Made by a program: the position numbers and the translations under genes. DNA of 64,000 nucleotides from assembly GCF_001411555.2 (NCBI RefSeq), contig NC_049911.1:7882209-7946208 (forward strand), written 5' to 3'. Below, piece by piece: positions 86-63,121 of the stretch. A model generated the notes under the pieces. The model did no database searches. It was not told the DNA's origin and was given only the letters and a program-made list of their open reading frames with translations. Numbering within the stretch: the first letter of the stretch is position 1; every line of letters begins with the position of its first letter. The DNA comes from Juglans regia (lineage: Eukaryota; Streptophyta; Magnoliopsida; Fagales; Juglandaceae).

Positions 86-87
86 AA

Positions 88-2825: not shown

Positions 2826-3048
2826 AAAACAGAAAGATGTTAATTGGAGTATATTAAATGTCCACTCCTACAAAACATCTTATGAAGAGATCAAAGAGAC
2901 TCACAACGTCATAGCCATTTGTTTGCAACTTACTTTCTTCATGATTCAAGCTTCTAATGTAGTAGACTTTGTCATCAAAACCAATATAAAAGGCCCCAAT
3001 AGAGTCATCATTGGTCATAAACATTTCTTGCATAGAGCAAGCATCATT

Positions 3049-13245: not shown

Positions 13246-13264
13246 AACCTGGTTGTGATGCCAA
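13246..13264 (-). other. Primer-binding site of Reina-like element, degenerate
   Basis: The minus strand reads TTGGCATCACAACCAGG right after the 5' LTR. It resembles the initiator-tRNA(Met) site TGGTATCAGAGCCAGG with substitutions. The gag start codon (13241) lies only 24 nt from the LTR, an exceptionally short leader. Confidence 0.65.
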
Positions 13265-13769
13265 TGATAGGTCCCTTATAATTGTAGATGATAAAACTCA
13301 AGTATATGTCCTCTTCGGGTGAGGATGTACCACAATTAAGTGCTGGAATAATTTTCTGCCCTCTCATTGATAACCCACAGCTGCTTAAATAGCAGTCCAT
13401 AAAACTGAAATTACAAATTGAAAACAGAGTTGCCGAAAACAGAGGAACTACTTAGAGCCACTACTAGTGACTGACGCCTAACCACTGAACCAATGAAATT
13501 TGACTCCACACTCCACGTTCTAACGGAAATAGAAATGCAACAACAGAAAAATAAATGCAGCAATAGAAAGATTAACAGAAAATAGAAACTGACTTCAACA
13601 GCTATGACTTAGTCCATGCATGTATGTGACTTCAACAGCTATGACTCAGTCCATGCACGCATGCATGCCACTCCATGCACTACGTCCTTGTTAGCCTTCG
13701 CATGTCTAACCTCCTCCTATATACTTGGAATTTGGTTTTAGGCCTCTCCTCGAACGTCGTGGCCTATCA
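13265..13769 (-). repeat. 5' LTR of Reina-like element
   Basis: 505 bp, the same length as the partner at 8394-8898, with the same TGATAGG...CCTATCA ends. It lies directly upstream (minus strand) of the primer-binding site. Confidence 0.93.
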
Positions 13770-26300: not shown

Positions 26301-26929
26301 CCTTTCTATGGAGTGGCACGACTTGAAGGGGATGAGAGGAACTTGCTTTCTTGAAGATGAAAAGAAAAGAAGAAGGAAAGGGATGAAGGTGGCGTCAGCC
26401 ATGGCTTTCTTGGAGAGAAAGATAAAGTTTTTCTTCTTCTTCCTTGGGTGTTGATCGACGGGTTTGGGGTAGAATGCCTTAGGATTAGTTTTTGTTTTCT
26501 TCTCTCTTTTGTTGCCTTAACCGATGGGTGCAAGGAAAAGGAAAAGAATTTAGTGGCTTGCTTAGGAAGTTTACAGGTCCAAGGTAGAAAATGACTTTAG
26601 CTGCTTTAGTCAAAACTTATCCCATAAGCTAAGGAGATGAATGGTGGAGAATGAATGTGGGAAGATATTTCCCTCACCTACCCATTCTATGGTAGAGAAT
26701 AATTGGGTCATTTCTTAAATGAATAAAAATTTAGAGGGCTTATGGAAAAATATCTCAAGGTCTTAAAAATATACCCTTGATTTATTATAATAAATCATAT
26801 TTTAAAATAAAACATACTCATCTTAAAATAAAATAATTAAAAATACTAAAAATCTTTATCTCAAAATATTTAACTTAAAGAATTAATAATATGACGTAAG
26901 GGCCTATGTAGTAAGACTTGGGTATTACA
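23359..26929 (-). mobile_element. 3.57-kb solo LTR (gypsy, minus orientation)
   Basis: It begins TGTCACTACC and ends GGTATTACA on the plus strand. Candidate 5-bp target duplications are ATGCC (23354-23358) and ATGGC (26930-26934). It interrupts the tandem array of the Tat-like element. Sequence throughout matches the LTR at 29807-35575 in reverse complement, for example the block at 26185-26240 against 30075-30130. There is no internal coding region and no partner LTR, so this is a solo LTR. Its great length suits the Tekay/Del chromoviruses. Confidence 0.85.
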
Positions 26930-35435: not shown

Positions 35436-35575
35436 TCAGGTGTTGCCCTTTATTAAATTAGAAATTTAAAGTACATGTGTGTTATGTTCATGTTGATTGC
35501 ATATTATTAGAAAAAAAACAAAGAGAACACGTATGTAAGTAGCGATTCCACCCTTCCCTGGGTGGGGTTGTTACA

Positions 35576-36090
35576 AATCAAGTTCGGCACCATCTGGATC
35601 ATTCTAAGTATTGCCCTTGTTTGCCATTGGGATATTCGCCAATTCGATGTCAAGAAATCCTTCATCCATGGTGATCTCCAGGAGGAAGTGTTTATTGACC
35701 AATCTCCAGGTTTTATCTATCCTACTTTTTATTCTTAGGTTTGCAAGCTAAACAAGGCCTTATATGACTTAAAAATAGGCCCCTCATGTCTAGTTTGATA
35801 AATTTAGTACTTCCCTTATTGTCGATGGTTTCCAGTGTAGCTCTGCTGACCCTTCACTTTTCATATATCACTCATCTCTAGGCACCATTTTTTTACTATT
35901 ATATGTAGATGATATTCTTCTCACTTGTTCAAACCCCTGACATCTTAATGCCTTCACTAGTACTCTTAGTCAATAGTTTGTTATGAAAGATTTGGGTCGA
36001 TAAACTAATTTTTGGGCATTCAAGTCAGTCCAACTTCCATGGTGTAGTCTTATCTCAATCTAAGTATGCTCTTGAGATGTGATGAAGGAA
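35576..36090 (+). pseudogene. Ty1/copia reverse transcriptase fragment (unit B)
   Basis: Duplicate of 88-610 with the same start after the LTR end. It reads RQFDVKKSFIHGDLQEEVFI-like, then KLNKALYDLK, then YVDDILLTCS near 35905-35930, broken by the same TAG after the FYS block and by other stops. The shared lesions show the fragment was already dead when duplicated. Confidence 0.8.
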
Positions 36091-36439
36091 GTGATTATTA
36101 GTGAATTCGTATTTTTTTCTTAATGATTAGGATGTTTGAAAAATAGTTAAAAGAAAAAAGAATCATTTACATTAATGTGCATATTTGAGATGCACATTTG
36201 GTACATCCTAACATTGTCCTAAAATAAAATAACAATATCTTATTAGGATTGGCCAATTAACTCTGACCTATATGGGGCGGATAAACTGATTGCTAACTTT
36301 CTAAATATTAAGGAAAAAGCTACGCCCACCGCTTGTTTGATCCCGCTCCCAGCTCCCGCTTGACGTGGCTTCCACAGAATAAATTAAAAACTTAGAAACC
36401 CTTATCTTCTTCAAGAAATAGAACAAAACTTAGCTTGCC

Positions 36440-37190
36440 TCCACATAATGAAATCTAGCCAACATACCCTTCTGTCACCTCCATAAAACGACGAGGGACC
36501 CAGCCAATTCCAAGACTCCACCTTACCCTTCTGTCGCCTCCACAGAGAACTTGTGTGGAGATATTCCTTTAGAGGATTTGAAAAGATCACTATGCTTGCC
36601 GAAAGGGTTTTGCTAGAAGGTTGAAGAGGTTTGCGAAACGCATTTAGTGAATGTGTACTTGGATATTTTTTCCAAAACTCTACAGGAGAGTTTGGGTGAA
36701 GCAAGTTGTGAATTTGTACTTGTGAATGAGAAACTAGATGAACGTACACACTAGCTAGAGCTTTCAACCAAATCTATGGAGTTACTGATGCTTAGGATGC
36801 ATGATGGTTTGGATGATGTTCATTCTCTTAATGAAGCCACTCTCAGAATCAAATTTAGAAAATGTTACCCATGAAAATCATTTTCTCAATCGAAAGATTA
36901 CTGAATGGGAAGCATTGATAATAGAGTACAAAAGTTATAAGAGTACATATGAGGCCTGCACGATAGAGAAGTTAGAGTTGGAAAACTCATTGAACCAAAA
37001 GATCTTAGAAAATCACAAGCTTCAAAATGATGTTTCCACTTTTTAGAAATGAAGGATCCTCTTCTTCTACTTCTTCCTTCTCCTTCTTCTTCTTCTGCTA
37101 ACTGAAATTGATGGGCTGACTTTTGAGAAGGAGAAACTAGAGGAGAAGAAAGGGGTTTTCGAGATTTTGAAATGAAGAATCCCCTTCTTC
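36440..37190 (+). pseudogene. Coiled-coil protein gene fragment (unit B)
   Basis: Duplicate of 935-1680. GDIPLEDLKRSLCLPKGFC-like and NVYLDIFSKTLQESLGEAS-like stretches are readable around 36555-36710. MKPLSESNLENVTHENHFLN and ITEWEALIIEYKSYKS follow at 36830-36945, then LELENSLNQKILENHKLQND. The fragment keeps a CAG codon where copy A has a TAG near 1170, so at least one of copy A's lesions is younger than the duplication. Function and parent gene are unknown. Confidence 0.5.
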
Positions 37191-37758
37191 TTTCCTCTTT
37201 TTTAATAATTAAAATAAAGATGTGGCAAGCCACATCAAGCGGGATCTACGAGCGGGGTCTGTGGAGCTACCAAGTATGAATGGCCATGAGATTTTAATAC
37301 ACTTGAATGGCCATGAGATTTTAATACGTATGAATGGTCTATATTCATGTAATATTAGAAATTTGTGGAAAAAATGTCAAGGAACACTGCTAAGGTCGGT
37401 CGATGTTAATCCAAGGGAAATTTTATCTGAATTAGATCTGGAATTGCTTGGCTGATCTCTTTTGTATAGACTGAACATTGAATAGTTGTATCTCATAATT
37501 AATGTATATGATCAGCTGGTATAGAGCACTACAAATCTCACACTTCTGCATTCTCAAACATCCTATCCAATCACTGGCATTAAGAATTGATGAAGCCTCA
37601 ATATATACATGAATTGCATCCATTTATTAAACTTGGCCTGGAGTACTGAGTACTAATGACCACTTCATACATTTTAATTCCTTACAATGGCCTTAGAAAT
37701 GAATACGTACAACAATATGGCTACCCATTTCCATACAACAAAAAAGATGACGCCTAAT

Positions 37759-38211
37759 TTAAAATTTTAAACCATAAGGAATAAAGGTATTGTAGAATTC
37801 AGAATGAGGATGTTGAGATACAAGGATAGCCCTGCACTCTTTCACCTTCACGTTCGAGCTACCTGTTTTAACTGATGCTCCAATGTAGCTCCATCCATCC
37901 AAATTATTTGACTGCTCCAAAAACGACTTGGCTGGTAGATACACCGCAAACCCAATTGGCCCTACAAAAGGGTCTTCAAGGGCACGTAAGACTAAGGGTT
38001 CTTTTAGGAGACCTTCATTAGTTTCAGAATGATAAACAAACTCAACAAAGTGGCCTTCATCAAGATGACTACCCATGAAAATCCTTGGATCTAAATTCTC
38101 TACCTCATCATCAACGTCATAAATAGTAAGATGAACATATCCCTCCCACTTACTATTATTATCTAGGTTTGGATGGATTTGAAGTGTTACATGACAACTA
38201 AAACTTCTCAT
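37759..38211 (-). pseudogene. Post-LRR domain of TNL copy B
   Basis: 150 open codons from MRSFSCHVTLQIHPNLDNNS to a stop after YNTFIPYGLKF. It aligns with 2825-2217 of copy A and 50411-49758 of copy C. A frame break just upstream (about 38225) separates it from the IP-x-WFN motif. Confidence 0.85.
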
Positions 38212-38363
38212 GTTGAACCACTTTGGAATTTAAGCTCCCAAGGAAGGTCCACACATTACCATGGGATTAAAACTATTAGTTTCCTGCATGTGAAGTAAGA
38301 ACAAAAAACAAAAAGATGTTAATTGCACTCCCACAAAACATCTTATGAAGAGATCAAAGAGAC

Positions 38364-39430
38364 TCACAATGTCATAGCCTTTTGTCTGCAAATACTTTCT
38401 TCACGATTCAAGCTTCTAATGTAGTAGTAGGCTCTGTCATCGAAACCAATATAGATGGCCCCAATAGAGTCATCAATGGTCATAAACATTTCTTGCATAA
38501 AGCAAGCATAATTTGAGACAAACTCTGGCACTGTGAAAAACATAGTGAATTTGACAGTAGTTCCACCATTATCCAATTGTTCCAGATACCCCGTACCATT
38601 CATGTCTTGAATTCCACCAAGTGATAGGCAATCAGATACATCCATAATTTTAAGAGATGACAACCTACAAATAACACTCAGAAAATTTGAAAGCTTTTTG
38701 TAGTAATGTAAAGACAATATGGAAAGGTTGTATAAACTCTTAAATGATGGGGGTAGTTCCTTTATGGCAGTACCATCCAAATAAAGTAACCGCAATGAAG
38801 TCATGTTTCCCAAATCTACATGTCTGGGAACTTCTCAAAACTTGAACAATCAGAAAGATAAAAATGTTCAAGTGACTTCAAGCTAATCTCATTTGGAAAG
38901 CTTTGAAGGCATTTGCAAGGATGTAGATTCAATCGTCTAAGCCGTTTGAGAACACCAATAGATTTGTGGACCTTAGATAAACTTGTACAACCTTCAAGGT
39001 CTAGTGTCTCAAGACTTGGGACTCTGGTGAAGTCTGGTATCTCCAACAAGTTTTGAGAGCCGCTACGATCAAAACATTTCAAACTCTCAAAACTCTGTTA
39101 TAAAATGAAAAATATTGAACCAAAAAAAAAAAAAAAGCATTAACGAGCTTAGTACCATTAGTAGAAAGAAGAACAAGAAGAAAACACATTACACTAATTC
39201 CCTTCCGCAGTTACTTGATGTGAATGCATGGAAATCTACGTTCAATAAGATTGTCTGCTTGAAAGCTATTTGACAAGGATTTTGAAGGATATTCAGACCA
39301 TTCTAGCACTCGTAACCCATGTGTTGGCATGAACCTTAAAGGGTCGTTGTGCCAATGCAGATTCAATAACTTATCACAGAGATTAGAAAACTCATGTTGA
39401 CAAAACTTGTGTTGCGAATTTTAAGAATTC
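38364..39430 (-). pseudogene. LRR region of TNL copy B
   Basis: The first LRR exon lies at about 39430-39190. The second (39082-38816) reads KCFDRSGSQNLLEIPDF and SLETLDLEGCTSLSKVHKSI. A frame change follows, and the block at 38813-38364 gives MTSLRLLYLDGTAIKELPPS and LSSLKIMDVSDCLSLGGI, then a short exon-like tail. It is better preserved than the same region of copy A, since it keeps the TAIKELPPSF repeat. Confidence 0.85.
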
Positions 39431-39603
39431 TCAATTTCTTCACCTTTGAGAAGGCTCTAACATTGTATCGTTCTTCATTTCGATTAGGTAAGTTTAGCAC
39501 TATGCCTTCAATCACGTCAGTTCCCTAAAAATGAAGAAAAATAAAATTGTGTGAGAAATATTTACAAAAAACTTAAGAATTCGAATGAAAATACACTATA
39601 CAT

Positions 39604-40453
39604 TCAAAAACAAGCAATATCTAAAAACAATTTCTTTTGTAAATCCTCCAATCCATCAAAACCTACTTGAAGTATATCTAAAATTATTTTATTAGGATTT
39701 GCTTTCAGTTGATCCCAAGCACCTTTCCATGCATTTTTTCCTCCACCAAACAAGGAGGACCCTAAAACTTTGAGAGCTAGTGGAAGGCCTTGAGCATATT
39801 TCACAAAGCCTTTGGATTAATCCACATAATTTTCTTCAGGATGGGGTTTCTTGAAAGCTGCTGAACTAAAGCGCTACAATTCTTCATCATTATTCAACTC
39901 ATTAACCTTATAGATATCATTCACTCCATGTCTTTTAAATAGATGGTTATCTCTGCTTGTTAAAATGATTCTAGTCCCCGGACCAAACCAATCATGTCTC
40001 CCTACTAATGATGTTAGATATTCTTCTCTGTCCACATCATCATGGACTAAAAAGAATTTTTTTATAAAAAAGTCTATTCCGTTTCATATTCATTCCCTCA
40101 CGATTATCCCATATATTTATTTCCCTCTCCATGAAGATCTTAGAAAGAAGTTTTTGTAAAGAAACTAAACCACGATTTCTAGTTTTTTCTCTAATATAGG
40201 CAATAAAGCTACTAGCTTCAAATTGGTAAGATATTCTATCATAAAAGACTTCTGCCAAAGTTGTCATGCCCACTCCACCCATAGTATGGATTCCTATACA
40301 GCATACATCATCCAATCCAATACCAAGTATGTTCATCATTTCACACGACATTCTATTCCAACAAGGTCCTTGGAAAGAATTGCAAAGTTACGACTCAATC
40401 CTTGAAGTATCTTTTTTTTTTTTTTTATTTCTTGGACAAGTGTTGATTCATAC
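39604..40453 (-). pseudogene. NB-ARC domain of TNL copy B
   Basis: Blocks in order are: YESTLVQEI; MMNILGIGLDDVCCIGIHTM; the altered P-loop (GGVGMTT); FEASSFIAYIREKTRNRGLV; a degraded kinase-2 region (KKILFSP then a stop near 40040); a SRDNHLF-like RNBS-B in another frame; and QGLPLALKVLGSSLFGG with KLFLDIACF at the left end. The stretch after IACF that copy A has at 4040-4390 is missing here: the sequence jumps from 39604 straight to the LRR-side intron, so copy B carries a deletion of about 260 bp or more. Confidence 0.85.
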
Positions 40454-41224
40454 CTGGGAAAAAATGATAAGATAATTAATTATTATGAGATAGTTATTGC
40501 CTTTCAAGAGTCAAATGTATGATATATAATGTATTAATGTGCAATATAGCACATTATAAGGAGCATGGTTTTGAGCTTCTGGTTGTAAGCTCCATGCTCC
40601 CTTTGTTTATGGTATTACTCTACCATAAATAAGGGTTATCAATAAAATTAGAGTAGCATTCCCATATCTTCAATATTATAGCACCCTAATATGGTTTAAC
40701 TTTTGACCCTTACATTTCCATTGTTTTTTGGTGAGAATTAGGAGAGTTTCGGTGTTGTTCCTAAATTAAAATCCATACAAGAATTGTAAGTTTTGATAAG
40801 GAATTAGGGTTTCTTGGTACATTGATGATCTGGGAGTTGCTGTTGATGCCAAATCCAAAGGACAAGGCATCATGATGTAGTTTCATATAATTAATAGTAA
40901 AGTACAAGGGAATCAGAGTAGGGAGCAATGTAATGATATGTAGTCAAAAGTAACTGATGCATATAGTAAAGCCAGAGGAAGGAAGTTGTGGCTCTGAGGA
41001 TGAAAGGAAGCCATAGAAATGTTGAATTTTAGAGGAATAGATATGGATGCAAATTACAAAGGTAGTCAATGTAACAACCCGATCTTATATTTTATTTTTT
41101 TATTTTTTGGAATAAATTAAAGATAATTTTTTTAAGCTCAATTTATGAGTTAAAGCCCATTAGAGAATTTATCGGATGGATTTTTTTTTTTTATAATTTT
41201 TAAGTTAGGGCTCCATCATTGTTG

Positions 41225-49489: not shown

Positions 49490-49757
49490 TTTTATATTGG
49501 GAATTTGAGGAAAAAATGTAAAGGAACACTGCTAAGGTCGGTCGATGTTAATCCAAGGGAAATTTTATCTGAATTAAATCTGGAATTGCTTAGTTGATCT
49601 CTTTTGTACAGCTTGAATGAAGAATTCCATCTCATAATTAATGTATAGCTGGGGTAAAGCACTGCAAATCTCACACTTTTGCATTGTCAAATGTCTTGCC
49701 CAATAGCTAGCATTAATAATTAATGAAAGCCTCAATATATACATGAATTGGATCCAT

Positions 49758-50411
49758 TTACACAACTTGGCCTAGAGTACTGACCCACCTCACATATTTT
49801 AGTTCCTTACAATACCATAGAAACGAATAGGTACAATTCAAACTACAACAAAGATGACGCCTAATTTCTAATTTTAAACCATAAGGATTAAACGTATTAA
49901 ATATTTCCGGATAAGGATGTTGACATAGAAGGCACGCCCCGCACTCTTTTACCTTCACGTTTGAGCTACTTGTTTTAACTGATGCTCCAATGTAGCTCCA
50001 TCCATCCAAATTATTAGACTACTCCAAACACCACTTGGCTAGTAGACACACCTCAAATCCATATGGCTTTACAGAAGGGTGATCTTTGGGGGCACAAAGG
50101 ACTAAGAGTTCTTTTAGAGGACCTTCATCAGTCTCAAAATAATAAACAAACTCAACGAACTGGCCTTCATTAGGATGATTGCCCTTGAAAATCCTTGGAT
50201 TTGAATTCTTTACCTCATCAACTTCATAAATAGTAAAATAAACATGTCTGTCCCACTTACTATTATTATCTAAGTTTTGATGGATTTGAAGTGTTAGATG
50301 AGAACCAGAACTTCTCATGTTGAACCACTCTGGAATTTTAGCTCCCAAGGAAGATGCACACGTTACTTTGGGAATAAAACAATTATTTTCCAGCTTGTGA
50401 AGTAAAAACAA
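49758..50411 (-). pseudogene. Post-LRR domain of TNL copy C
   Basis: Contains LGAKIPEWFNMRSSGSHLTL and FTIYEVDEVKNSNPRIFKG, then a stop (TAG for Gln) before SNNLDGWSYIGASVKTSSSN. It ends with a frame change relative to copies A and B. Confidence 0.85.
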
Positions 50412-50616
50412 AAAACAGAAAGATGTTAATTTGAGTATATGTATGTATATATATATATATACATATTAAATAACCACTTCCACAAAACATCTTATGAAGA
50501 GAAAAAGGCTCAATACGTCATAGCCTTTTGTTTGCAAATTACTTTCTTCATGATACAAGTTTTTAATGTACCAGACTCTGTCATCATAACTAATATAGAA
50601 GGCCCCAATAGAGTCA

Positions 50617-51577
50617 TCATTGGTCATAAACATTTCTTGCGTAGAGCGAGCATTTGAGCAAAACTCTGGCACCAGCACCCTTCATTTCTTGAATTCCACC
50701 AAGTGCTAGGCAATCAGATACATCCAGAATTTTAAGAGATGACAAACTACAAATAACGCTCGAAAAAATTGAGAGCATTTTGCAGTTATGTAAAGACAAT
50801 ATCGAAAGGTTGCATAAACTCTTAAATGATGGGGGTAGTTCCTTTATGGCAGTACCATCCAAATAAAGTAGCTGCAATGAAGTCATGTTTCCCACAATGT
50901 CTGAAAACTTCTCAAATCTTGAACAATCAGAAAGATAAAAATGTTCAAGAGACTCCAAGCTAATCTCATTCGAAAAGCTTTTAAGGTGTTTGCAAGCATG
51001 TAGATTCAATCGTCTAAGCCTTTTGAGAACACCAATAGATTTGTCGACCTTAGATAAACTTGTACAACCTTCAAGGTCTAGTGTCTCAAGACTTGGGACT
51101 CTAGTGAAGTCTGGAGTCTCCAACAAGTTTACAGACCCGCTAAGATCAAAGCGTTTCAAACTCCCAAAACTCTGTTATAAAACAATAAATATTGAACAAA
51201 AAAACAAAAAAAGCATTAACGAGCTTAGTACCAGTAGTAGAAACAAGAACAAGAAGAAAACACCTTACACTAATTCCCTTCCACAGTTGCTTGATGTGAC
51301 AGCTTGGAAATCTAAGTTCAATAAGATTGTCTGCTTGAAAACTGTTTGACAAGGATTTTGAAGGATATTCAAATCATTCTAGCACCCGTAACCCATGCGT
51401 TGGCATGAATCTTAAAGGGTCGTTGTGCCAATGCACATTCAATAACTCATCACAAAGATTACAAAAACTCATGTTGACCAAACTTGTGTTGTGGATTTTA
51501 AGAATTCTCAATTTCTTCATCTTTGAGAAGGCTCTAACACTAAATCGTTCCTCATTTTGGTTAGGTAAGTTTAGCAC
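50617..51577 (-). pseudogene. LRR region of TNL copy C
   Basis: The linker and first repeats (LNLPNQNEERFSVRAFSKMK, LRILKIHNTSLVNMSF) are at 51577-51374. NLIELRFPSCHIKQLWKGIS is at about 51310. After a ~100-bp intron, the longest continuous LRR stretch of the three copies (51159-50700) runs from KRFDLSGSVNLLETPDF through DGTAIKELPPSFKSLCNLSI to LDVSDCLALGGIQEMKGAG. Confidence 0.88.
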
Positions 51578-51936
51578 TCTGCGTTCAATCCCGTCATTTC
51601 CCTAAAAACCAAGAACAATAGAATTGTGCGAGAAATATTTGCAAAAAAACTTAAGAATTAGAATGAAAATACACTATACATTTATATCTGGATTAATCCA
51701 CTCACAGTATTATTCTTCAACACGTGAAGGACATCCTTATAATGCCACAATCTACTACATCGGCCAGGCTCTTCAGGGGATTCATCATAAGTTATTTCTT
51801 GACCCATTTTTTTGTAGCAAATCATGCATCCTCAACCTCTTAGATGAGATGATTATAAGACATTTCTCCATGAGAATATCAATATTGAGGTATGGGTAGC
51901 AACCAAAACTTTCTAATATATCAATTAAAATGTTAT

Positions 51937-52766
51937 CTAAGACCTCTCCATTGAAAAAGAAGCAATATCTAAAAACAGTTTCTTTTGCGAATCCTCCAAT
52001 CCATCAAAGCCTACCTGAAGTATATCTAAAATTCCTTTATTAGGATTTGCTTTCAATTTATCCCAAGCACCTTTCCATGCATTTGTTCCTCTACCAAACA
52101 AGGAGGACCCTAAAAGTTTGAGAGCTAAATTAAGGCCTTGAGCATATTTCACTAAGTTTTTGGAGAAATCCATATAATTTTCTTCATGATAGAGTTTCTT
52201 AAAAGCTGCCAAACTATAGAGCTACAGTGCTTCATGATTATTCAACTCATTAATCTTACAGATATCATTCACTCCATTTTTTTCAATACATGGTTATCTT
52301 TGCTAGTTAAAATGATTCCCTGCTAATGCTGTTAGTTGTTCTTCTCTATCCACATCATCAAGGACTAAAAATACTTTTTTATAACATAGTCTATTCTGTA
52401 TCATATTCATTCCCTCACGATTGTCCCATTTATTTATTGTCCTTTCCATGGAGAAAGAAGTTTTTTTTTTTTTGTAAAGAAATTGAACCACGATTTCTAG
52501 TTTTTTCTCTAATACAGGCAATAAAGTTACTAGCTTCAAATTGGTAAGATATTCTATCATAAATGACTTCCGCCAAAGTTGTCTAACCCACTCCAGCCAT
52601 ACCATGAATTCCTATAAAGCGAACATCATCCAATCCAATACCGAGTATGTTCATTTCCTCCACACGGGGATTCTATTCCAACAAGGTCCTTGGAAAGAGT
52701 TGAAAAGTTACAACTCAATCCTTGAAGTATCCTTTTAATGATTTCTTGAAAATTGTTGATTCATAC
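51937..52766 (-). pseudogene. NB-ARC domain of TNL copy C
   Basis: Blocks are: IGIHGMAGVG with stop at the lysine; TTLAEVIYDRISYQFE; GMNMIQNRLCYKKVFLVLDD (kinase-2, about 52380); then a deletion that removes the WFGPRSKI stretch; a decayed RNBS-B; and QGLNLALKLLGSSLFGRGTN (about 52140) with KLFLDIASF. In GLPLAL the Pro has become Asn. Confidence 0.88.
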
Positions 52767-52837
52767 CTGGGAAAAATGATAAGATAATTAATTATTATGA
52801 GATAGTGATAGCTTTTCAAGAGCCAAATGTATGATAC

Positions 52838-53714: not shown

Positions 53715-55298
53715 ATGAGGCAACTAATTGAGTTGTACGGTGAAAACAACTGCCAAGACACCTCCACAAGTCTCCTGCCTACCGTGGAGGGGTTTGAGAA
53801 ACTGTTGGAGGAGGTGAAGATAGGAGGGCAAGATGACGGTAGGAGGCTAATGTTGGGGCATGAGAAGAGGTGTTGCGTGCTGAAGTGTGCGAAAATGAAG
53901 GCTAAAAGTGAGGTTGAGCTTTGGAAGAGGAGGTTTGAAATCGAAACCTCGAACAATAGAGAAGAGCAAGACTCATCAGAAGAGCCGGCCAGAGTGCAGC
54001 TGAGGAGAATCAACCATCAGTGAGCGGGATAATGTCCTGTAGAGCTACCCCTAAGGGTGCTTGGGATTAGATCCCTCTGGAGGAGAGCATCCCATTCCAT
54101 AGACACTTCATCCAGGGGAAGCTCCTATACACTTAGAGCCCTTAGATTGCATCGGGGATTCTAGAGGATATGAGTCTTCATCCTTTCCAAGCCATTAGTG
54201 TAACTGAAGTGCCAAGCACCATCATGGACACCACGAACATATGACAGATCCTCCCACAAATCCCGGATGGTAATCATAGGCTTCCAAAGCAGTTCTTGCC
54301 TTGGCCTGATTAGTCTCCAAATCCCTCCTCTGTTTCCTTTCATCTTTTAGGGCCTTTCTCTTTTTTGTTAGAGACTGGGAAGCTTTCTCGTACTGTCCCG
54401 ATAGCCACATGTACAACCGATCATCGGAGCCATGCTACTTGCGCAGCTCCAAGTTTTCAGCCCGCAGCCGCTCAAGCTCCTGTAGATAGTTGTTGAGAGA
54501 CTTTTGTAACCCCTCCCTTGCCTCGAAAGCAAGCGCCACCTCAAGAAGAAGAAGACCAACCTCATCCTGGGACTTCGACAAGTCAACGAAAGCCTCCTCA
54601 ACCTCTTCCTTCTTCTTCTGCTCCTCCGTTATATAGCGTAAAGCCATATGTGTGAGCAAACAAAGTTCTCTATTCTTGCTCGCCACCTTCACTTGGCCGT
54701 CCACGAAGAATGCCACCAGATGCTCCAAGCCCTGCCATAGAAGTCTGTGTCAAAATCAAAGAAGGAAACGGACAAGAGGCGCATAGAGCTTACAAACAAA
54801 CATCTTACCACAATGAAAAGCCTCTTCAGCCTGTTATCTGCCTTGCAAATACAATTGGGATGGCTCTTCACAGCCGTTGGCATAAAGTCCATCAGGACCT
54901 CATCAACAACCTCTTTATCTGCACCAAGGATCACAGCCAGAGGAATGCCCGCCATCTCCTCCTCGAACCAAGCAACGACCCTTGCCACTTCATCACCAGC
55001 TGAGGTGACCTTGACCTAGGGAGAGTGTAGGAGTCAGCCTCGGCCTCCTCCAACGTGCGATGCCAAATGATGCAACTCAACGTAAGGATCCTCCACGTGC
55101 TAGGAGGGAGCTGAGCAAGTGCCAACTTGAAAAAAATAGCACATCACTCATTAAACGATAGAAGGGCAGTCTGAGACCACTAGAGAACATGGCGGGATAC
55201 ACCGCCACATTGGAGATGAAACCTTAGAATCTACCACCCATTCGGTTGGAGGAGGCAACTACAGGTCCATAGTCTGAGGGACCCTGTAGGTCTCCCTT
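53715..55298 (-). pseudogene. Antisense transposon ORF, 3' part (PF04195-like plus coiled coil)
   Basis: Continues from 62973-63121 across the inserted composite element. The joined frame reads ELKSLRETYRVPQ, then a TAG and a shift. The next frames give AVYPAMFSSGLRLPFYRLMS, a LALAQLPPSTWRIL block (about 55130-55080) and VDEVLMDFMP (about 54905). A long coiled coil follows (EEQKKKEEVEEAFVDLSKSQ, LQELERLRAENLELRKQ, SQSLTKKRKALKDERKQRRD; 54640-54300). This matches the putative gypsy-type transposon (PF04195) proteins carried by plant Tat-type elements. Recognisable protein fades below about 54160. Confidence 0.65.
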
Positions 55299-55470
55299 TG
55301 TAACGCCCCAATAGAAGGCCCAAACCACATGGCCTATACTCCAAAAGGACTAGTCAATGATACAATTGGAGCCCTATTGGAACCTTATAAAGAGCAAGAA
55401 CTTTTCATTCCCAAGCAATGTGGGATCCCATACACCACCTATCCTTACTCATATCATATGGGGTATCACA
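55299..55470 (-). repeat. TRIM-type LTR, 3' copy (172 bp)
   Basis: TGTGATACCCC...GGGGCGTTACA on the minus strand. It contains a palindromic TGGGATCCCA and a TATA-like CTTTATAAGG (55383-55392). Same length as the copy at 62796-62967. Confidence 0.93.
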
Positions 55471-55570
55471 ATCTACCCCCCTTAAATTCCCGACATCCTC
55501 GTCGGGCCTGTTTATTATAGGTGGCACGGCTCAAGTCCCATATTTCTGGTTGGGATAGGCTCTGATACCA
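55471..55570 (-). mobile_element. TRIM internal domain with PBS and polypurine tract
   Basis: The minus strand starts with TGGTATCAGAGCCTATCC (initiator-tRNA-Met-type primer-binding site), then about 60 bp of non-coding DNA, then TTTAAGGGGGGTAGAT next to the 3' TRIM LTR. With two 172-bp LTRs it would make a ~445-bp TRIM, typical for the class. Confidence 0.85.
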
Positions 55571-55572
55571 AC

Positions 55573-57876
55573 TGTAAAGCCCCGACCCTGAGGGTCCGGA
55601 GAGTTAACTCATAACACCTGATAATCAACTCTAACAAGGCTAGAGTACTTCCAAATTCAAGAATATATCCATTTTCCCAAACCTCAAATCGAACGTAAAT
55701 ACTTCAATTAAATAAATCAAATAAACTCATTTATCCAATATTCAATCCAACAACCCAAATAAAATCAACTCTTCTTCATGTCTCAAATAACAACTAGAAA
55801 TAATAAAACATTAACATAGTCTCCATAAACCATCTAAATCCATTGAAGCAAACTTAAGAAAGATAATTAACCTCCAACACCAACACTAATATCATGAGAT
55901 ACCCAACAACAAATCAATGCTAATCTTCTCCTTAGACTCTAATACTGATCTTCAGCTGAGCCATCGATGTCATACTAGTATGTAAACATGAGCATTTATA
56001 ACATTTGATAAACCGAACAAAACATTTACTTTCAGAATGCAGAAACAAAACTTGTACAAAAACATTAGAACGAAGTTTTCAGAAAAATAAACTTATTCAA
56101 AAAGAGAATCTGTTGGCATTTCTAAACTGACACCTTATAATCATATCATCGTTTAATAAACACATCGGGACAATACCATGTTTAAGCCCCGTGGTAGGGT
56201 TATAAACCACCATTATACCCGTGGCTGGGCCATTTTCCATGTTTCACCCCCGTGGTAGGGTTATAAACCACCATTATACCCGTGGTTGGGCCTTAACAGA
56301 AACAGAACGGATTGCATCGAAAATCCGGTTACAAACATATACAGAATTAGAACTTCATGCCAAGATTTTCAGACGATACACCATGTCTAAACAAAACACT
56401 GAAAAGCTTCAGATCGTTTCACATGTTCGAGATAAACATAAACAAAATATCCTCATTTGTTCATAACAAAACTTTTAGAATTTCTTATTCGCTCTTTTAC
56501 ATAGTTCAGAAACAAAGTGCACAAAACTAGCTCATGTCTACACCAGTCATGACAGAAAACACTTTCACTTATAATGAATTTATGAGTATGCAGAATAAAC
56601 ATCTGAGGTTGTTTTCAGATCATTTCTTTTCAAAAACAAACACGTTTATTTTCAAAGTCAACCTCATTTTATTTCTCTTATATAAAACTAGTATATGAAC
56701 CCCGCTTACCTGACTTCTTCGTATTATCAACACCTTGAGCCGGAACTCTAATAGTAACACCACCTAAACAAAAAGAACATATATCCAACATTTAATAACC
56801 AATCTAGTAGACTGCTATTTATTGAATAATAAATCAAAACAGTCCATTCACAGCTCCATAACTATCTAACAATTAAACCCGAATAACTCTCTCTTCAAAT
56901 CATTCGCATTTAAAACCCAAAACAGCCACCACTTTCTATTAACACCAACCAACTATAATTATTTCCAAGACCAACCATAGCAACTCCAATAATTAAAAAC
57001 ATAATCCAACTCAAACTTCACTTCCAACCTTCGAATAAAAATAATTTCAGTGCACACATCAATACTCTAATCATTCAACAATTCAAAACTTGCACAAAAG
57101 TTCAACACTACTAATTTCAAAACACCCATCATTTTACATCAAAAAGTCTCAAATAATACTTCAAAAACCGACTCACAAAACACCCAAAATTATACTCCTC
57201 AACATCCATAATTCCAACACACTCCACTGCTCCAACCATTAAAACATCAACTCAAAAATAAATGTCAAAAATTCTTCTACTGAAAATACTAATGGTCTGC
57301 GCAGAGAGGAAAAACTGCCTAAGTGTGAAGCACGGCTAACCAAGCAATGTGTGTGTGCGTGTGATCAAAACATGGCAGAAACCGAAAATGGAAAGGAGAT
57401 CCGCACGAGTAAAACCAGAAGAATAGGGAAAAGAAAGAAGAAAAACCATAAAAGAAAAAAAGAAAAGCCATAATAGAAGAAGAAATTACCAAGTTTTGTT
57501 CAAAAGCCGAACGAAATTGCAGTGGAGAAACGGTTTGAAGTTCGAAACCCTTGAGTCGAGCGGACAGTGAAGAGATGGGGAAGAAGAAAAGAAAAAAAAA
57601 ATAAAGAGAGAACCCGATTGAGAAATCTGTATAAGTGAGTGAAGCCTTGAGCGTGAAAGGAGATGAGAAATTAACTGCTGAAGTCGTGGGTTGGTGCGCA
57701 CGGTTGTGTGAAGTGCGAAATTGCAGTGCAGAAGAGAGAACCCGTGGAGAAGAAAAACAGTGCATCAGAAAAGTGAACTCACCCCTAAACGACGCCGTTC
57801 TTCTCATCACTTGCTGCTCGTGGGCTGGGCTTCATCCTGTCTTCAAAGGGGCTGGGCCTAAAGCCTGGTTATTACA
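55573..57876 (-). repeat. Single 2.3-kb chromovirus LTR inside the composite
   Basis: TGTAATAACC...GGGCTTTACA on the minus strand. Right side: the chromovirus polypurine tract (57877-57889). Left side: a TRIM primer-binding site. No 5-bp duplication flanks it, so it is not an ordinary nested solo LTR. It contains a 61-bp tandem duplication at about 56178-56291. The small frames within it are not genes. Confidence 0.9.
56178..56291. repeat. 61-bp tandem duplication in the chromovirus LTR
   Basis: Two units, each with CCCGTGGTAGGGTTATAAAC, then CACCATTATACCCGTGG and a TGGGCC end. The units are nearly identical. Confidence 0.85.
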
Positions 57877-57889
57877 TTCTTCCCCCCTT
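57877..57889 (-). other. Chromovirus polypurine tract
   Basis: The minus strand reads AAGGGGGGAAGAA directly before the 2.3-kb LTR start (TGTAATAACC). Confidence 0.85.
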
Positions 57890-57914
57890 ATAAAAATTCC
57901 ATCCTCGGAATTTG

Positions 57915-58418
57915 TTACAAGCTGTTAGGATCGTCGTCGAACAACTGTGGGTACTTGACTTGCATTTCCTCTTCTAATTCCCAAGAGACTTCACTGATAG
58001 CATGATTATTCCATACCACCTTAACCAATGGAATAGTCCGATTACGTAACACTTGTTCTTTTCTCTCTACAATCCTTACCGGTTCTTCTGTATAAGTCAG
58101 ATCTTCCTGAAAATGAAGTGGCTCATAATCGATAACGTGGGTGGGGTCAGGTACATACTTCCTCAGCATAGATACATGAAAAACATTGTGTACACCTGAG
58201 AGTGCGGGTGGTAGGGCTACTCTGTAAGCCACTGGTCCAATCCGATCAAGAATCTCAAATGGTCCGATGTACCTAGGGCTCAACTTACCCATCTTTCCAA
58301 ACCTCATAACCCCTCTCATGGGTGCAATCCTCAAGAATACCTTATCCCCAACCTTAAACTCTAATTGGCGACGACGATTATCTGCATAGCTTTTTTGTCG
58401 ACTCTGAGCTGTTCTCAT
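57915..58418 (-). pseudogene. pol: Chromovirus integrase C-terminus with chromodomain
   Basis: 167 open codons from [20 protein letters not shown]. The GPY/F module reads [20 protein letters not shown], and [20 protein letters not shown] follows. The chromodomain near the end reads [39 protein letters not shown] and MQVKYPQLF. It ends 25 bases before the polypurine tract, so the polyprotein C-terminus is complete. Confidence 0.9.
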
Positions 58419-58424
58419 TCTAGC

Positions 58425-59359
58425 TCAAATGGTCTCAATCTTCTCTGTTGTCTTCTGTATGATTTCTGGACCCAAAATTTGTCTTTCACCCACTTCGTCC
58501 CAATATAACGGAGATCTACACTTCCTACCATAAAGTGCTTCATAAGGTGCCATCTCAATACTAGCCTGGTAACTGTTATTATAAGCAAACTCGACCAAAG
58601 GCAAGTGTCGAATCCAAGTCCCCTTAAAATCCAGCATACAAGCTCTCGACATGTCTTCCAAAATTTGAATGGTCCTTTCTGACTGACCATCTGTCTGTGG
58701 GTGAAATGTCGTGCTGAAATTTAACTTAGTGCCGATGGCCTCTTGTAAGCTTCACCAAAATTTCGAAGTGAAACGCGGATCTCTATCCGACACAATGGAC
58801 ACAGGTATCCCATGCAACCTCACTATTTCCTGTATATAAAGCTCGGCTAGTTTCTCCAACTTATAAGAAACTTTGATAGGTACAAAATGAGCCGTCTTCA
58901 TCAAACGGTCTACTATCACCCAAATTGCATCTTGTTCGGTCGGTGCCCGTGGAAGGCTTGTAACAAAGTCCATAGAAATGTGCTCCCATTTCCATTCTAG
59001 AATCTGAAGTGGTTGCAATAACCTTGCTGGTCGTTGGTGTTCTACTTTCACCTGTTGGCATGTTAAGCACTGTGCCACAAATTGAGCAATCTCTCTCTTC
59101 ATACCCTCCCACCAAAAAGACTCTTTCAAATCTCGATACATTTTCGTACTACCCGGGTGAACTGTGTAAGGGAGCGGTGCGCTTCTTCAAGGATAAGTCT
59201 TTTTATTACAACACTGTCCGGCACACAACATCTGTTTCCAAACCTTAATACTCCATCTTCAGAAACATTAAACTCAGGTTTATCCCCTTTTTCTACTTCT
59301 TCAATTATTCTCGCCAACTTAGAATCTTCTTTTTGGGCGAGCTTGATTATGTCTATCAA
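58425..59359 (-). pseudogene. pol: Chromovirus integrase core
   Basis: Linker IIKLAQKEDSKLARIIEEVE, then a frame change at about 59130. The zinc-finger cysteines are in [14 protein letters not shown]. The core has DFVTSLPR (first Asp, about 58965), VSDRDPRF (second Asp, about 58775), a stop after TSKFW (58752), then HPQTDGQSERT with the Glu near 58690. LVEFAYNNSYQASIEMAPYE and ALYGRKCRSPLYWDE complete the core. The D,D,E residues are kept but three frames are needed. Confidence 0.92.
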
Positions 59360-59392
59360 AGCTGGTTGAACTATTAAACTGGCTATTAATGC

Positions 59393-60616
59393 CTACTGGT
59401 CACCCACAACTACTTCAATATTGGCTCTTTCCAAGTCCATTAATAAGTGGGGCTGAGTGGTAAGAGTTGCAATTACCGGTCCCACTGGCTTCCTGCTAAG
59501 TGCATCAGCTACAACATTAGCTTTGCCTGGATGGTAGTTAATGTTGCAGTCATAGTCCTTGACTAGTTCGAGCCATCTTCTCTGTCTCATATTCAGTTCT
59601 TTCTGAGTGAAGAAGTATTTCAAACTCTTGTGATCCGTGTAGATTTCGCACCTTTCACCATATAAATAATGCCTCCAGATTTTAAGTGCAAAGACAACGG
59701 CGGCCAACTCCAAATCATGTGTTGGGTAATTTTGTTCATATGTCTTCAGTTGCCAAGAAGCGTATGCTATTACTTTCCCATGCTGCATCAATACACATCC
59801 CAAACCCAAATGCGAAGCATCACAGTAAACCACAAATCCTCCTCTTTCGCTAGGAACTGTTAGAACTGGAGCTGTCACCAATCTCTTCTTCAATTCCTGG
59901 AAGCTTTCCTCACATTTTTCAGTCCAAACATACTTGTTGTTCTTCCTAGTAGGGGCGGTAAGGGGAACCGCTATTTTTGAGAAATTGTCTATAAATCGAC
60001 GGTAATAACCAGCCAAACCCAAGAAACTCCTAACTTCATGCACATTGGTTGGTTGAGTCCAGTTAACTATTGCTTCAATCTTCCCGGGATCTACAGAAAT
60101 GCCATCCCTTGAGACTACATGTCCCAAAAATGTAATAGACTCAAGCCAAAATTCACACTTCTTCAACTTGGCAAATAATTTCTTATCCCTGAGTGTCCCT
60201 AGTACTTGTCTAAGATGGTCTTCATGTTCGGCTTTGCTCTTGGAGTAGATTAATATATCATCAATAAACACCACTACAAATTTATCCAGAAACTCATGAA
60301 ATACTCGATTCATCTAGTCCATAAATACTGCTGGGGCGTTGGTTAAACCAAAAGGCATGACTAAAAATTCATAATGGCCATACCTGGTCCTGAAAGCTGT
60401 CTTAGGCACATCCTCCGCCTTGATTTTTAATTGATGACAACCCGATCTGAGATCAATTTTAGAAAACACTTGCACACCTTGCAACTGATCAAATAAATCA
60501 TCGATGCGGGGCAACGGATATTTATTCTTATGGTCACTCGATTCAGTTCCCTGTAGTTTATACACATCCTCATTGTCCCATCCTTCTTCTTCACAAACAA
60601 GACTGGAGCTCCCCAA
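59393..60616 (-). pseudogene. pol: Chromovirus RT catalytic region and RNase H
   Basis: The shifted frame gives [35 protein letters not shown] and [14 protein letters not shown], followed by a TAG at 60316. The next open frame (60313-59393) starts [12 protein letters not shown] and carries the catalytic [14 protein letters not shown], then [20 protein letters not shown] and [13 protein letters not shown]. RNase H has [40 protein letters not shown] and [17 protein letters not shown]. All catalytic motifs remain, so the stop may be recent. Confidence 0.93.
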
Positions 60617-61300
60617 GGTGACACACTAGGTCTAATGAAACCTTTGTCTAACAAGTCTTGCAACTGTTCTTTGAGCTCGGCTAACTTTGATGGCGCCATT
60701 CGATAAGGGCCTTTGGAAAGAGGCGCCGTGCCTGGGGCTAATTCAATAGCAAACTCTACCTCCCGCTCAGGCGGTAATCCAGACAAATCTTCAGGAAAAA
60801 CTTCTGGATATTCCCTCACAATAGGAATCTCTTCTAGTTTCAATTCTTCCTTTGGTTCATCCACCACAAAGGCCAAATACCCTTGACACCCATCACGTAA
60901 TAGCTTGTCAACCTGAAAAGTAGAAATAACTGATGGAGAGGTACGCACCCTAGAACCCATAAACCGAAGTTCCTCTTCTTCCAGAAACTTGAACACCACT
61001 TCCCTTTTAAAACAATCAATACTAGCATAATTGGAAGCTAACCAATCCATCCCCAAAATCACATCAAACCCGGTCATAGGAAAGACTATCAGGTTAGCTA
61101 GCATTTCCTTCCCGCTAATAGTTATTGGAGACTTGAGTAAAATCTTGTTACAAGTCACTATATCACCAGTTGGGGTAGAGACCCTCAAATTGTAGTCCAT
61201 CTCATTAGCAACAATGGGGCACAACTTAACATAATCCATTGAAATAAAGGAGTGGGTAGCCCCCGAGTCAAATAAAACAATAGCCTTATTGAGGAATAAG
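60427..61300 (-). pseudogene. pol: Chromovirus protease and RT N-terminus
   Basis: The protease motif [12 protein letters not shown] lies at about 61280-61245, just upstream of [16 protein letters not shown] in the same frame. [19 protein letters not shown] follows at about 61060. The RT N-terminus ([40 protein letters not shown]) runs to a frameshift at about 60530. The catalytic DSG of protease is intact. Confidence 0.92.
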
Positions 61301-61387
61301 GGAACAATTCCTAGTTACATCATATAATCCAAAGAGATAATAAGACAAATATTCCTAATTCACAACAAAGAAAATTTTAAAAGATGG

Positions 61388-62371
61388 TTAGAGAATTATA
61401 CCTGTGATGACATCATCCTTGTCCTCAGCTTCTCTCTGTGTCAAAGCAAACACCCGAGCAGGTACAGTCCTCCGCTGGTTGTTGCCTTGATTATTCAGCC
61501 TAAAGTTTTGGGGTGGGTTGGGCCTTCTGTTGTTCTCCGCAAGCAATGGACATTCTCTAATGAAATGCCCATCCTTACCGCATTTGAAACATGATCTCAC
61601 TTCCTTCCTGCACTCCCCATGGTGTATGCGGTTACAGAACTTACAGGGGTTAGGTGTATGATTTCCCTGTATCTGTCTCTGACTTGAACTGCTCCCCTCA
61701 TTTCTCTTTTTCCATTGCCCTTGATCCGAACTAGGAAACCCTTGTGGAGCAGCTCTCTTCCTCTGTTCTTGCAATTCAGCACCCCTCTTAAGATTCTGTT
61801 CAACTAGCATCGCCTTGTGCACTAATTCTGAAAAATTCTGAATCTGTAAGACCATCACCCGTTCATAAATCCTGTAGTTCAAACCTTCTTCAAACTTCCT
61901 AGTCTTTTTCTCCTCATCGGGAATCAAGTATGCGGCGAAACGTGATAATTCCGCAAACCTTGCAGCATACTAGCGCACAGTCATGGTCCCTTGTACCAAG
62001 TTGGTGAACTCTCGGGCTCTAGCATCTCTATCTGCCTTAGGGAAAAATCGATCGAAGAAACTCTGCTTGAATTGAGCCCAAACAATTACTCCAATCCCCT
62101 CAGCTTCCCTGATAACTTTCTCAGAATTCCACCATCTCTTTGCTTCTCCAGATAGTTTGAAGGCTGTGAACTTGACTTTTTGCTGATCGGTACACTCCAA
62201 AACACCAAATATTTCTTCAATGTCTTGTATCCAATCTTCCGCGGCGTTCGCATCGCCTCTTCCATCAAAGGTGGGAGGATGCGTTAGATTAAATTGTTCG
62301 AACGTGCAACCCCCACCATTGTCGTCTTCATTCAAATCTTCAAGAGTTCGAACTCTACGACGAGCAACCAT
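61388..62371 (-). pseudogene. gag: Chromovirus gag (composite element)
   Basis: Start at 62371 (MVARRRVRTLEDLNEDD). The gag core follows: FEQFNLTHPPTFDGRGDANA, AEDWIQDIEEIFGVLECTDQ, LSGEAKRWWNSEK and FKQSFFDRFFP. A TAG follows MTVR at 61970. The same frame resumes with the capsid C-terminal part (MIPDEEKKTRKFEEGLNYRI, about 61927). It ends with two cysteine-rich knots, CKFCNRIHHGECRKE and the zinc knuckle CFKCGKDGHFIREC (CX2CX4HX4C intact). Length and order are typical for chromoviruses of the long-LTR Tekay/Del type. A stop at 61388 precedes protease. Confidence 0.92.
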
Positions 62372-62483
62372 CCTGAAAGTCTAAACTCAGTGAAACGTTC
62401 TAAAATAAAAGAAAACGAAAAGACCAGGTAAAAAGAAATAAATAAGAGGATGAATAAAATATGCATATAAACACAAATACATA

Positions 62484-62504
62484 TATATATATATATATAT
62501 ATAT
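62484..62504. repeat. (AT)n microsatellite in the chromovirus leader
   Basis: AT run between the gag start and the primer-binding site. Confidence 0.85.
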
Positions 62505-62782
62505 CTATATAAATCAGATAACTATGTAAATCCGACATCACTTAATACACATGTATATCACTAAAATCTATAACCTCAAAGTTCCAAACTCAACTCCTAA
62601 CATCAGCCAAATCTAAACCTCAAATCCCATCAAAATCAATCTTAATATTCTTGGAACTCAAACTTAAATACCCCCATGACTATCCTTATAATCCTCCAAT
62701 TCCTATTTTGAAATTTCCACATCTTATGAACCCACAGATATCTAAACCTCCAAGGTCTACAGTATGCAGAATTCAAACCTGT

Positions 62783-62793
62783 CTCTGATACCA
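62783..62793 (-). other. Primer-binding site at the TRIM-chromovirus junction
   Basis: TGGTATCAGAG on the minus strand, two bases after the TRIM LTR end, followed by ACAGG and the chromovirus leader. The same 11 bases occur at 55560-55570 between the chromovirus LTR and the TRIM internal domain. It matches the initiator tRNA(Met) 3' end complement. Confidence 0.9.
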
Positions 62794-62795
62794 TT

Positions 62796-62967
62796 TGTAA
62801 CGCCCCAATAGAAGGCCCAAACCACATGGCCTATACTCCAAAAGGACTAGTCAATGATGCAATTGGAGCCCCATTGGAACCTTATAAAGAGCAAGAACTT
62901 CTCATTCCCAAGCAATGTGGGATCCCATACGCCACCTACCCTTACTCATATCATATGGGGTATCACA
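62796..62967 (-). repeat. TRIM-type LTR, 5' copy (172 bp)
   Basis: Partner of 55299-55470 with about five transitions between them. The TATA-like box is at 62880-62889. It sits directly upstream of the chromovirus leader, so any transcript of the chromovirus genes would start from a TRIM promoter. Confidence 0.93.
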
Positions 62968-62972
62968 CCCTT

Positions 62973-63121
62973 AGTGATTTCAACTCAAAGGGAGTCACCT
63001 TCGAATGGCATGAGAAACCAACAAACTCCTTTGGAGTGGTGTCTTCCTTTTCGTCTATGACATGGGTAGCGTCGAAAGTTCTTGCCAACCCGGAAAGATG
63101 CAAGGATTTCTTGGGAGCCAT
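62973..63121 (-). pseudogene. Antisense transposon ORF, 5' part
   Basis: The probable start is at 63121: MAPKKSLHLSGLARTFDATH, VIDEKEDTTPKEF, SCHSKVTPFELKSLR. It is cut by the composite retroelement exactly in the codons after KSL. The target duplication CCCTT lies within this reading frame, and removing the insert plus one CCCTT restores an open join to the frame at 55298. Confidence 0.65.

Follow-up and report, generated by a model that had tools for sequence, protein, structure and literature searches.

We analysed a composite retroelement in a 64,000-nucleotide stretch of Juglans regia DNA (the window; C11:7882209-7946208 of the 571-Mb genome, loci elsewhere being cited in the same way). 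It occupies window positions 55299-62967 on the minus strand, is 7,669 bp long and reads, from 5' to 3', as a long terminal repeat (LTR) of the kind found in terminal-repeat retrotransposons in miniature (TRIMs), a primer-binding site (PBS), a gag-pol interior of chromovirus type, a 2,304-bp LTR, a second PBS, a TRIM interior and a second TRIM LTR. Its parts are:

62968-62972, no strand: target-site duplication CCCTT, 5' copy, a perfect match to the 3' copy
62796-62967, minus strand: 5' TRIM-type LTR, 172 bp, 93-97% to the LTRs of the stand-alone TRIMs L003, L004, L007 and L008
62783-62793, minus strand: PBS TGGTATCAGAG, first switch point, with the TRIM-type spacer AA (62794-62795) upstream and A downstream
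57877-62782, minus strand: chromovirus-type interior (leader, then gag, protease, reverse transcriptase, RNase H and integrase pieces), interrupted by stops and ending at a purine tract
57877-57889, minus strand: the purine tract ending this interior, directly before the inner LTR
55573-57876, minus strand: inner chromovirus-type LTR, single, 2,304 bp, TG...CA
55560-55570, minus strand: PBS TGGTATCAGAG, second switch point, with the chromovirus-type spacer GT (55571-55572) upstream and C downstream
55471-55559, minus strand: TRIM interior, ending in a purine tract (55471-55483)
55299-55470, minus strand: 3' TRIM-type LTR, 172 bp
55294-55298, no strand: target-site duplication CCCTT, 3' copy

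The original prediction held that 172-bp TRIM LTRs within a perfect CCCTT duplication enclose the element and that both switches between TRIM and chromovirus fall on the same PBS sequence; both statements were confirmed, at the positions claimed and on the minus strand. The two TRIM LTRs differ by five transitions and no gaps in 172 bp (Kimura two-parameter distance, K2P, 0.030), and positions 55200-63100 are free of N. With its 172-bp LTRs, PBS, purine tract and 5-bp duplication CCCTT the element has the outward features of a TRIM, a class whose LTRs range from about 100 to 250 bp. At 7,669 bp and with gag-pol pieces it falls outside the non-coding format of less than about 1 kb, within which the stand-alone copies do lie by size. 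It also departs from a chromovirus with paired like LTRs, only one 2,304-bp LTR being present. The best alignment between the outer 172-bp and the inner 2,304-bp LTR covers 12 bp (E 0.046), and the likeness of TRIM and chromovirus is limited to the LTR end and the PBS.

Nine minus-strand coding pieces of the interior were compared with Pfam, with a chromodomain cut-off of E <= 0.001. Matches were obtained to Retrotrans_gag, zf-CCHC, RVP_2, RVT_1, RT_RNaseH, Integrase_H2C2 and SH3_Tf2-1, and gag, protease, reverse transcriptase, RNase H and integrase follow one another, in pieces interrupted by stops, in the order of a Ty3/Gypsy chromovirus. The pieces assigned from Pfam are:

61973-62374, minus strand: gag piece (Retrotrans_gag, Ty3_capsid)
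61391-61969, minus strand: gag C-terminal piece with a zinc knuckle
60430-61314, minus strand: protease piece (RVP_2)
59396-60313, minus strand: C-terminal part of the reverse transcriptase and RNase H
58755-59186, minus strand: integrase zinc-binding piece
57918-58424, minus strand: integrase C-terminal piece (SH3_Tf2-1), with a possible chromodomain region

Two of the nine pieces had no Pfam match, none of the nine matched the integrase core, and no chromodomain was matched at E <= 0.001 in the window's coding pieces; residues 104-165 of the integrase C-terminal piece match PDB 2m2l, a chain whose name is uninformative, weakly (E 0.00046). The predicted chromovirus coding region with one 2,304-bp LTR was thus recovered in its domains and its LTR, while the name chromovirus is not proved for an interior without a Pfam chromodomain, and we write chromovirus-type. 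The gag-pol frame is interrupted at several places, from which we conclude that the window copy is dead, a fossil.

Among the checks proposed with the original prediction was a search for both parents as separate elements, and both were found. At least 46 matches to the TRIM LTR were listed (best 40 of 3,038 candidates scored), and stand-alone TRIMs with this LTR are 446 bp long; a duplication flanks two of three such copies examined (ATGTC, GGCTT) and is missing from the third. At ten stand-alone chromovirus-type 5' ends (L029-L038) the long LTR precedes the same interior as in the window. Of the stand-alone copies compared, L030 and L037 come nearest to the window interior, at 95%, and the others are at 87-93%. 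A stand-alone element of about 10.1 kb, known from its two ends, lies at C3:19074274-19084393; it has chromovirus long-LTR ends at both expected places and flanks (CTCAG/ATCAG) alike at four of five bases. The LTRs of both families end in GGGGCGTTACA, followed by a two-base spacer that differs and then by the common 11-nt PBS, so that the tract common to both parents is GGGGCGTTACA-NN-TGGTATCAGAG, about 24 nt. The spacer is AA in all nine junctions of a TRIM LTR with a TRIM interior (eight stand-alone copies and the TRIM unit of the hybrid at C10:25.46M) and GT in all six distinct stand-alone chromoviruses.

By their ends, long LTRs fall into three types, C (that of the window), D (ending CAACCGGGTTTGGGGCGTTACA) and E (ending GGGACCGGGGCRTTACA). 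Loci of types D and E are about 68-77% to part of the window's long LTR, and on this likeness the three types may be branches of a single lineage. The window itself contains another relative of its chromovirus-type LTR at 33456-33689, which is 69% similar to positions 56495-56719 of the inner LTR. Elsewhere, three TRIMs lie within about 1.5 kb at L007 (C10:26830774-26833945), two in the same orientation and one inverted, and two same-strand chromovirus-type leaders at C11:16305387 and C11:16312726 are 7,339 bp apart, roughly one interior plus one LTR, possibly a tandem two-unit element of a single family.

Read against these parents, the window switches are AA-PBS-A and GT-PBS-C. Each LTR keeps the usual spacer of its own family, and the base after the PBS is typical of the other: A after the first PBS, as in the stand-alone chromoviruses compared, and C after the second, as in most stand-alone TRIMs compared. 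Both switches therefore lie inside the 11-nt PBS.

We searched the genome for such junctions with queries directed at the PBS. A 173-bp query across the first junction (TRIM LTR-PBS-chromovirus-type interior) crossed the switch at no fewer than 20 loci besides the window among the best 40 of 3,091 candidates; some of these matches span the query in part only, and the remaining matches end at the LTR and are plain chromoviruses. The second junction (long LTR-PBS-TRIM interior), searched with a 188-bp query, recurs at at least seven loci besides the window (best 40 of 2,866 candidates), with one locus on C6 common to both lists. C14:27.02M (L025) is a segmental duplicate of C14:26.92M (L019), with the same first junction and flank about 108 kb away. 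There are thus at least 26 independent loci with a TRIM/chromovirus-type switch, window included, and all our counts of hybrid loci are lower bounds. The switch is seen with at least three long-LTR types (C, D and E), and the idea of a one-off event was wrong. A query of the 5' leader and PBS without any LTR gave a TRIM LTR in three of the best 40 matches (of 447 candidates); ten of the other 37 were seen with a long LTR, nine match the first-junction query only up to the LTR, and 18 were taken as lacking a TRIM LTR by their absence from the first-junction list. An exact-pattern count of junctions returned 13 matches, and none for a reversed control, and was set aside as unspecific: of nine matches outside the first-junction list six were inspected, five proved to be plain TRIMs in which a variant run of bases follows the PBS, and for the sixth, L073, the structure was not made out.

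Both ends could be located at 17 of the 26 loci, and 16 of these 17 hybrids have a perfect 5-bp duplication; when 5' and 3' flanks were paired wrongly as a control, none of 272 pairings agreed. Besides the window, the hybrids with perfect duplications are:

C1:37.53M, GATGC: TRIM LTR left, long LTR right
C2:19.98M, CTTAT: TRIM LTR left, long LTR right
C10:21.67M, TATAA: TRIM LTR left, long LTR right
C4:24.67M, TGACT: TRIM LTR left, long LTR right
C2:1.95M, ATAGG: TRIM LTR left, long LTR right
C2:5.23M, ATGTT: TRIM LTR left, long LTR right
C14:19.99M, CGTGA: TRIM LTR left, long LTR right
C3:18.63M, AAAGG: reciprocal form, long LTR-PBS-TRIM interior-TRIM LTR
C10:25.46M, AAGGT: TRIM-then-long form with a whole TRIM kept upstream and unlike outer LTRs
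C16:15.95M, TGAAT: two units with TRIM LTRs outside, inner LTR of type D
C6:11.86M, ACAGT: two units with TRIM LTRs outside
C15:7.23M, GAAGT: two units with TRIM LTRs outside
C14:26.92M, ATAAC: captured interior piece, no inner LTR
C11:21.09M, TGAGA: captured interior piece, no inner LTR
C5:3.53M, GTAAG: mirror form, D-type long LTRs outside and a TRIM inside

The class with a TRIM LTR on the left and a long LTR on the right makes up 7 of the 16, and the two-unit class with TRIM LTRs outside, to which the window (CCCTT) belongs, another 4; further composites with TRIM LTRs outside, a long LTR inside and other duplications, which had also been suggested as a check, thus exist at C16:15.95M, C6:11.86M and C15:7.23M. 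The outer LTRs are unlike in nine of the 16, and unlike end LTRs within one duplication imply that the hybrid predates integration. These nine bear directly on the origin offered first in the original prediction, a homologous crossover at the PBS by which a chromovirus circle with one LTR would enter a resident TRIM. Such a crossover fits the layout and duplication of the window taken alone, and for that copy it counts against the reading that we prefer below. It would, however, always leave the LTRs of the resident element outside, which is not the case in nine of the 16, and cannot yield unlike outer LTRs within a perfect duplication; moreover, it would have to act on a shared tract of only about 24 nt, which is very short for homologous crossover. 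We consider it very unlikely, and for the class as a whole the nine unlike-LTR hybrids disfavour it.

Two hybrids interrupt sequences that can be read across the insertion. The one at C4:24.67M splits the LTR of a plain TRIM, and its joined flanks align without gaps over 172 of 172 positions, 153 of them identical (89%). The one at C2:19.98M splits another Ty3-type element in its RNase H frame, with residues 1-185 before and 183-292 after the insertion. Both are ordinary integrations of ready-made hybrids. These two exact empty sites also speak against a misassembly or a simple nested insertion, for which one could cite the plentiful repeats in the window. The junctions recur on many contigs, which makes an assembly error unlikely, and in the window the single long LTR adjoins the coding part, unlike in a nested insertion. 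The probability that we leave to either is practically negligible.

In 14 of the 16 hybrids each interior has an LTR of matching kind downstream, a relationship that we assume for types D and E, and foreign sequence occurs only upstream of the PBS; the other two are the captured-piece forms, in which an interior fragment is joined directly to the TRIM PBS. A foreign part confined to the region upstream of the PBS would be the footprint of switching where both cDNA strands begin or end. We therefore think it likely, from the arrangement of the sequences, that the window element is one TRIM/chromovirus-type hybrid within a single duplication, formed before integration by template switching between co-packaged templates at the shared tract. 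The other origin named in the original prediction, template switching between co-packaged RNAs, is to this extent supported.

The process would begin with TRIM and chromovirus-type RNAs packaged together, as we infer from the hybrids. Plus-strand strong-stop DNA of the TRIM, comprising LTR, spacer and copied PBS, would land on the chromovirus minus strand and give TRIM LTR-chromovirus interior-chromovirus LTR; the reciprocal landing would give chromovirus LTR-TRIM interior-TRIM LTR. The window form would correspond to both halves, linked by the long LTR. If the spacer is not that of the TRIM, the jump more likely took place earlier, within the shared U5 end, during minus-strand synthesis, after which plus-strand priming at the TRIM purine tract would set the left end. 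The hybrid at C10:25.46M, with its whole TRIM upstream, looks like a version primed further up. The division into these two routes, plus-strand transfer and minus-strand jump, is our interpretation of the spacers. Integration would presumably proceed through the shared LTR end, and the TRIM would be mobilised by the chromovirus-type lineage.

Plus-strand transfer with each LTR keeping its own spacer fits both window junctions and the mixed-end hybrids C2:1.95M, C2:5.23M and C14:19.99M. Several observations weigh against the template-switching reading. Among 21 junctions of a TRIM LTR with an interior, window included, the spacers are GT (9), AA (5), TT (4), AT (2, one event, duplicated) and GA (1), so that the AA predicted by plain plus-strand transfer is found in just 5 of 21 (the assignment of TT to LTR type D relies on the hybrid junctions L012 and L018 and on no stand-alone copies). 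The non-AA spacers place many switches upstream of the spacer, so that either the minus-strand jump or mismatch repair has to be called on. The long-LTR-to-TRIM junctions at C6:11.86M and C12:12.48M carry the AA of the TRIM and not the spacer of the long LTR. The hybrid at C1:26.16M (ATTAT/ATTTC) has both ends located and no duplication, and some right ends were located by seeking the expected duplication beside an LTR end. Ends were not found or the structure was not made out at nine of the 26 loci (C16:7.10M, C13:16.13M, C8:16.63M, C10:27.24M, C11:20.49M, C1:15.82M, C9:4.99M, C12:12.48M and C3:13.71M). Finally, the evidence for hybrids comes from one genome only.

At C10:27.24M (L024/L048), one of these nine loci, a gag-pol position joins the TRIM PBS directly, with about five bases in common, and a TRIM interior and LTR follow; its outer duplication was not found. 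At C9:4.99M (L042/L052/L064), another of the nine, gag-pol and then the long LTR precede a second-junction switch; the 5' end was not found, and the hybrid is probably another composite like that of the window.

The spacers can also be accommodated if finished linear cDNAs, or a circle and a linear cDNA, were joined by short-homology repair over the tract of about 24 nt before a normal integration. Joining of this kind yields the same products and duplications, the tract GGGGCGTTACA-NN-TGGTATCAGAG is present in both parents, and spacers of either parent do occur. By itself it leaves unexplained why the TRIM breakpoint lies in the PBS region even where homology is low, as with the roughly five bases at C10:27.24M, a point to be read with the searches having been aimed at the PBS. 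We regard this origin as unlikely.

When the hybrid interiors were compared by tblastn with the stop-free pieces of the window, gag and pol pieces throughout were found at C1:37.53M, gag and part of pol at C14:26.92M, and gag only at C2:19.98M, C10:21.67M, C4:24.67M, C10:25.46M and C15:7.23M. There was no tblastn match to the window proteins at C2:1.95M, C2:5.23M, C14:19.99M, C16:15.95M, C6:11.86M, C11:21.09M or, with the comparison covering loci L012 and L049 only, C5:3.53M; the interior of the reciprocal hybrid at C3:18.63M is that of the TRIM alone. The suggestion that a TRIM acquires coding capacity in this way is accordingly weak here, the window frames being broken and most of the sister interiors with located ends being gag only or without a match.

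The same comparison bears on whether the composites form a mobile family that copies itself as a unit. Such a family would account for TRIM-ended composites with different duplications, in the window and at C16:15.95M, C6:11.86M and C15:7.23M. Their interiors differ, however (gag-pol in the window, gag only on C15, no match to the window proteins on C16 and C6), as do their inner LTRs (type C or relatives, and type D on C16), and C14:26.92M and C14:27.02M, the sole pair that agrees in structure and flank, represent a segmental duplication. Moreover, mixed-end forms would not be expected to replicate, their two ends having no common R region. We give this explanation hardly any credence. The LTR pairs of six TRIM-ended hybrids have K2P values of 0.030-0.076 (for the C16 hybrid a 13-bp duplication in the 3' LTR was left out of the calculation), and those of three stand-alone TRIMs values of 0.006, 0.036 and 0.048; by this spread, the formation of hybrids would appear to have extended over a long time.

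In a self-comparison of the window, positions 1-5855, 35494-41068 and 49494-52836, which make up much of it, are related at about 80-91% identity, probably as one repeat family or a local duplication. A 510-bp direct repeat (8389-8898 and 13260-13769, 95.9% identical, 4.9 kb apart) is a possible LTR pair of another element, and an inverted repeat of about 2 kb with 83% identity lies at 24523-26469 and 29823-31796.

How TRIMs move is an old question, and the mixed-LTR hybrids tie a TRIM to a co-copied lineage without recourse to sequence likeness; judged from them, the chromovirus-type lineage is likely the helper of this TRIM. The hybrids also suggest that switching at the PBS can supply gag-pol elements and TRIMs alike with a foreign LTR, each time in a single step, and can do so repeatedly. 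On balance, we favour the broader view that the PBS is a standing exchange point at which LTRs are traded, in the course of reverse transcription, between an orphan TRIM and a chromovirus lineage unrelated to it, that mixed-end insertions are fossils of shared particles, and that the helper of an orphan TRIM may be read from any genome through foreign LTRs joined at the PBS within one duplication. LTR swapping between an autonomous and a non-autonomous element was reportedly described in soybean by Du et al. in 2010, in families said to be related. No TRIM/chromovirus PBS hybrid is described among the open-licence literature matches listed.

One close likeness, as far as the accessible parts of the articles cited here go, is with four three-LTR complexes with duplications from Triticeae, rice and maize, formed by members of the same family and attributed to template switching between RNAs packaged together (Sabot and Schulman 2007, PMC1950507). 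Like the window element, these complexes have an inner LTR, two cores, matching outer LTRs and 5-bp duplications. Their parents belong to one family and the switch is placed between R regions (PMC1950507), whereas the parents of the window element are unrelated and are joined at the PBS/U5 end; in addition, our hybrids have parents very different in size, recur with more than one type of long LTR (C, D and E) and also occur in mixed-end, reciprocal and mirror forms. Template switching is also in evidence for mini-Tnt1 in tobacco (PMC2923131). In a model for human immunodeficiency virus type 1 (HIV-1) with asymmetric LTRs, plus-strand strong-stop DNA from one genome anneals to the PBS of a second genome (PMC9278108). 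As in our hybrids, unlike LTRs then stand within one provirus; in HIV-1 they come from the same virus, through a deletion into one LTR, and here from different element families (PMC9278108). Recombinants of grass centromeric retrotransposons, for which either illegitimate recombination or co-packaging with template switching has been invoked, arose between related elements with breakpoints in the coding region, in contrast to the unrelated parents and the PBS region seen here (PMC4079200).

With respect to helpers, of the 289 TRIM subfamilies in a survey of 48 genomes, 278 had no identified relative encoding a retrotransposase (Gao et al. 2016, PMC4717578). Partners were sought there by likeness to the TRIM sequence; here the partner is indicated by physical hybrids despite unlike LTRs and interior (PMC4717578). 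In wheat, autonomous and non-autonomous partners have been judged by a common PBS and common LTR ends, for Wilma, Sabrina and WHAM (PMC9744471) as for Cereba and Quinta (PMC11302176), and a change of partner by gene conversion or template switching has been proposed (PMC9744471). For these pairs the accessible text proposes transfer and shows no mixed-end insertions, unlike the hybrids described here (PMC9744471, PMC11302176). In summary, recombinants of reverse transcription are a known kind, and what seems new is that exchange recurs, at a fixed point, between a TRIM and a larger lineage to which it is unrelated.

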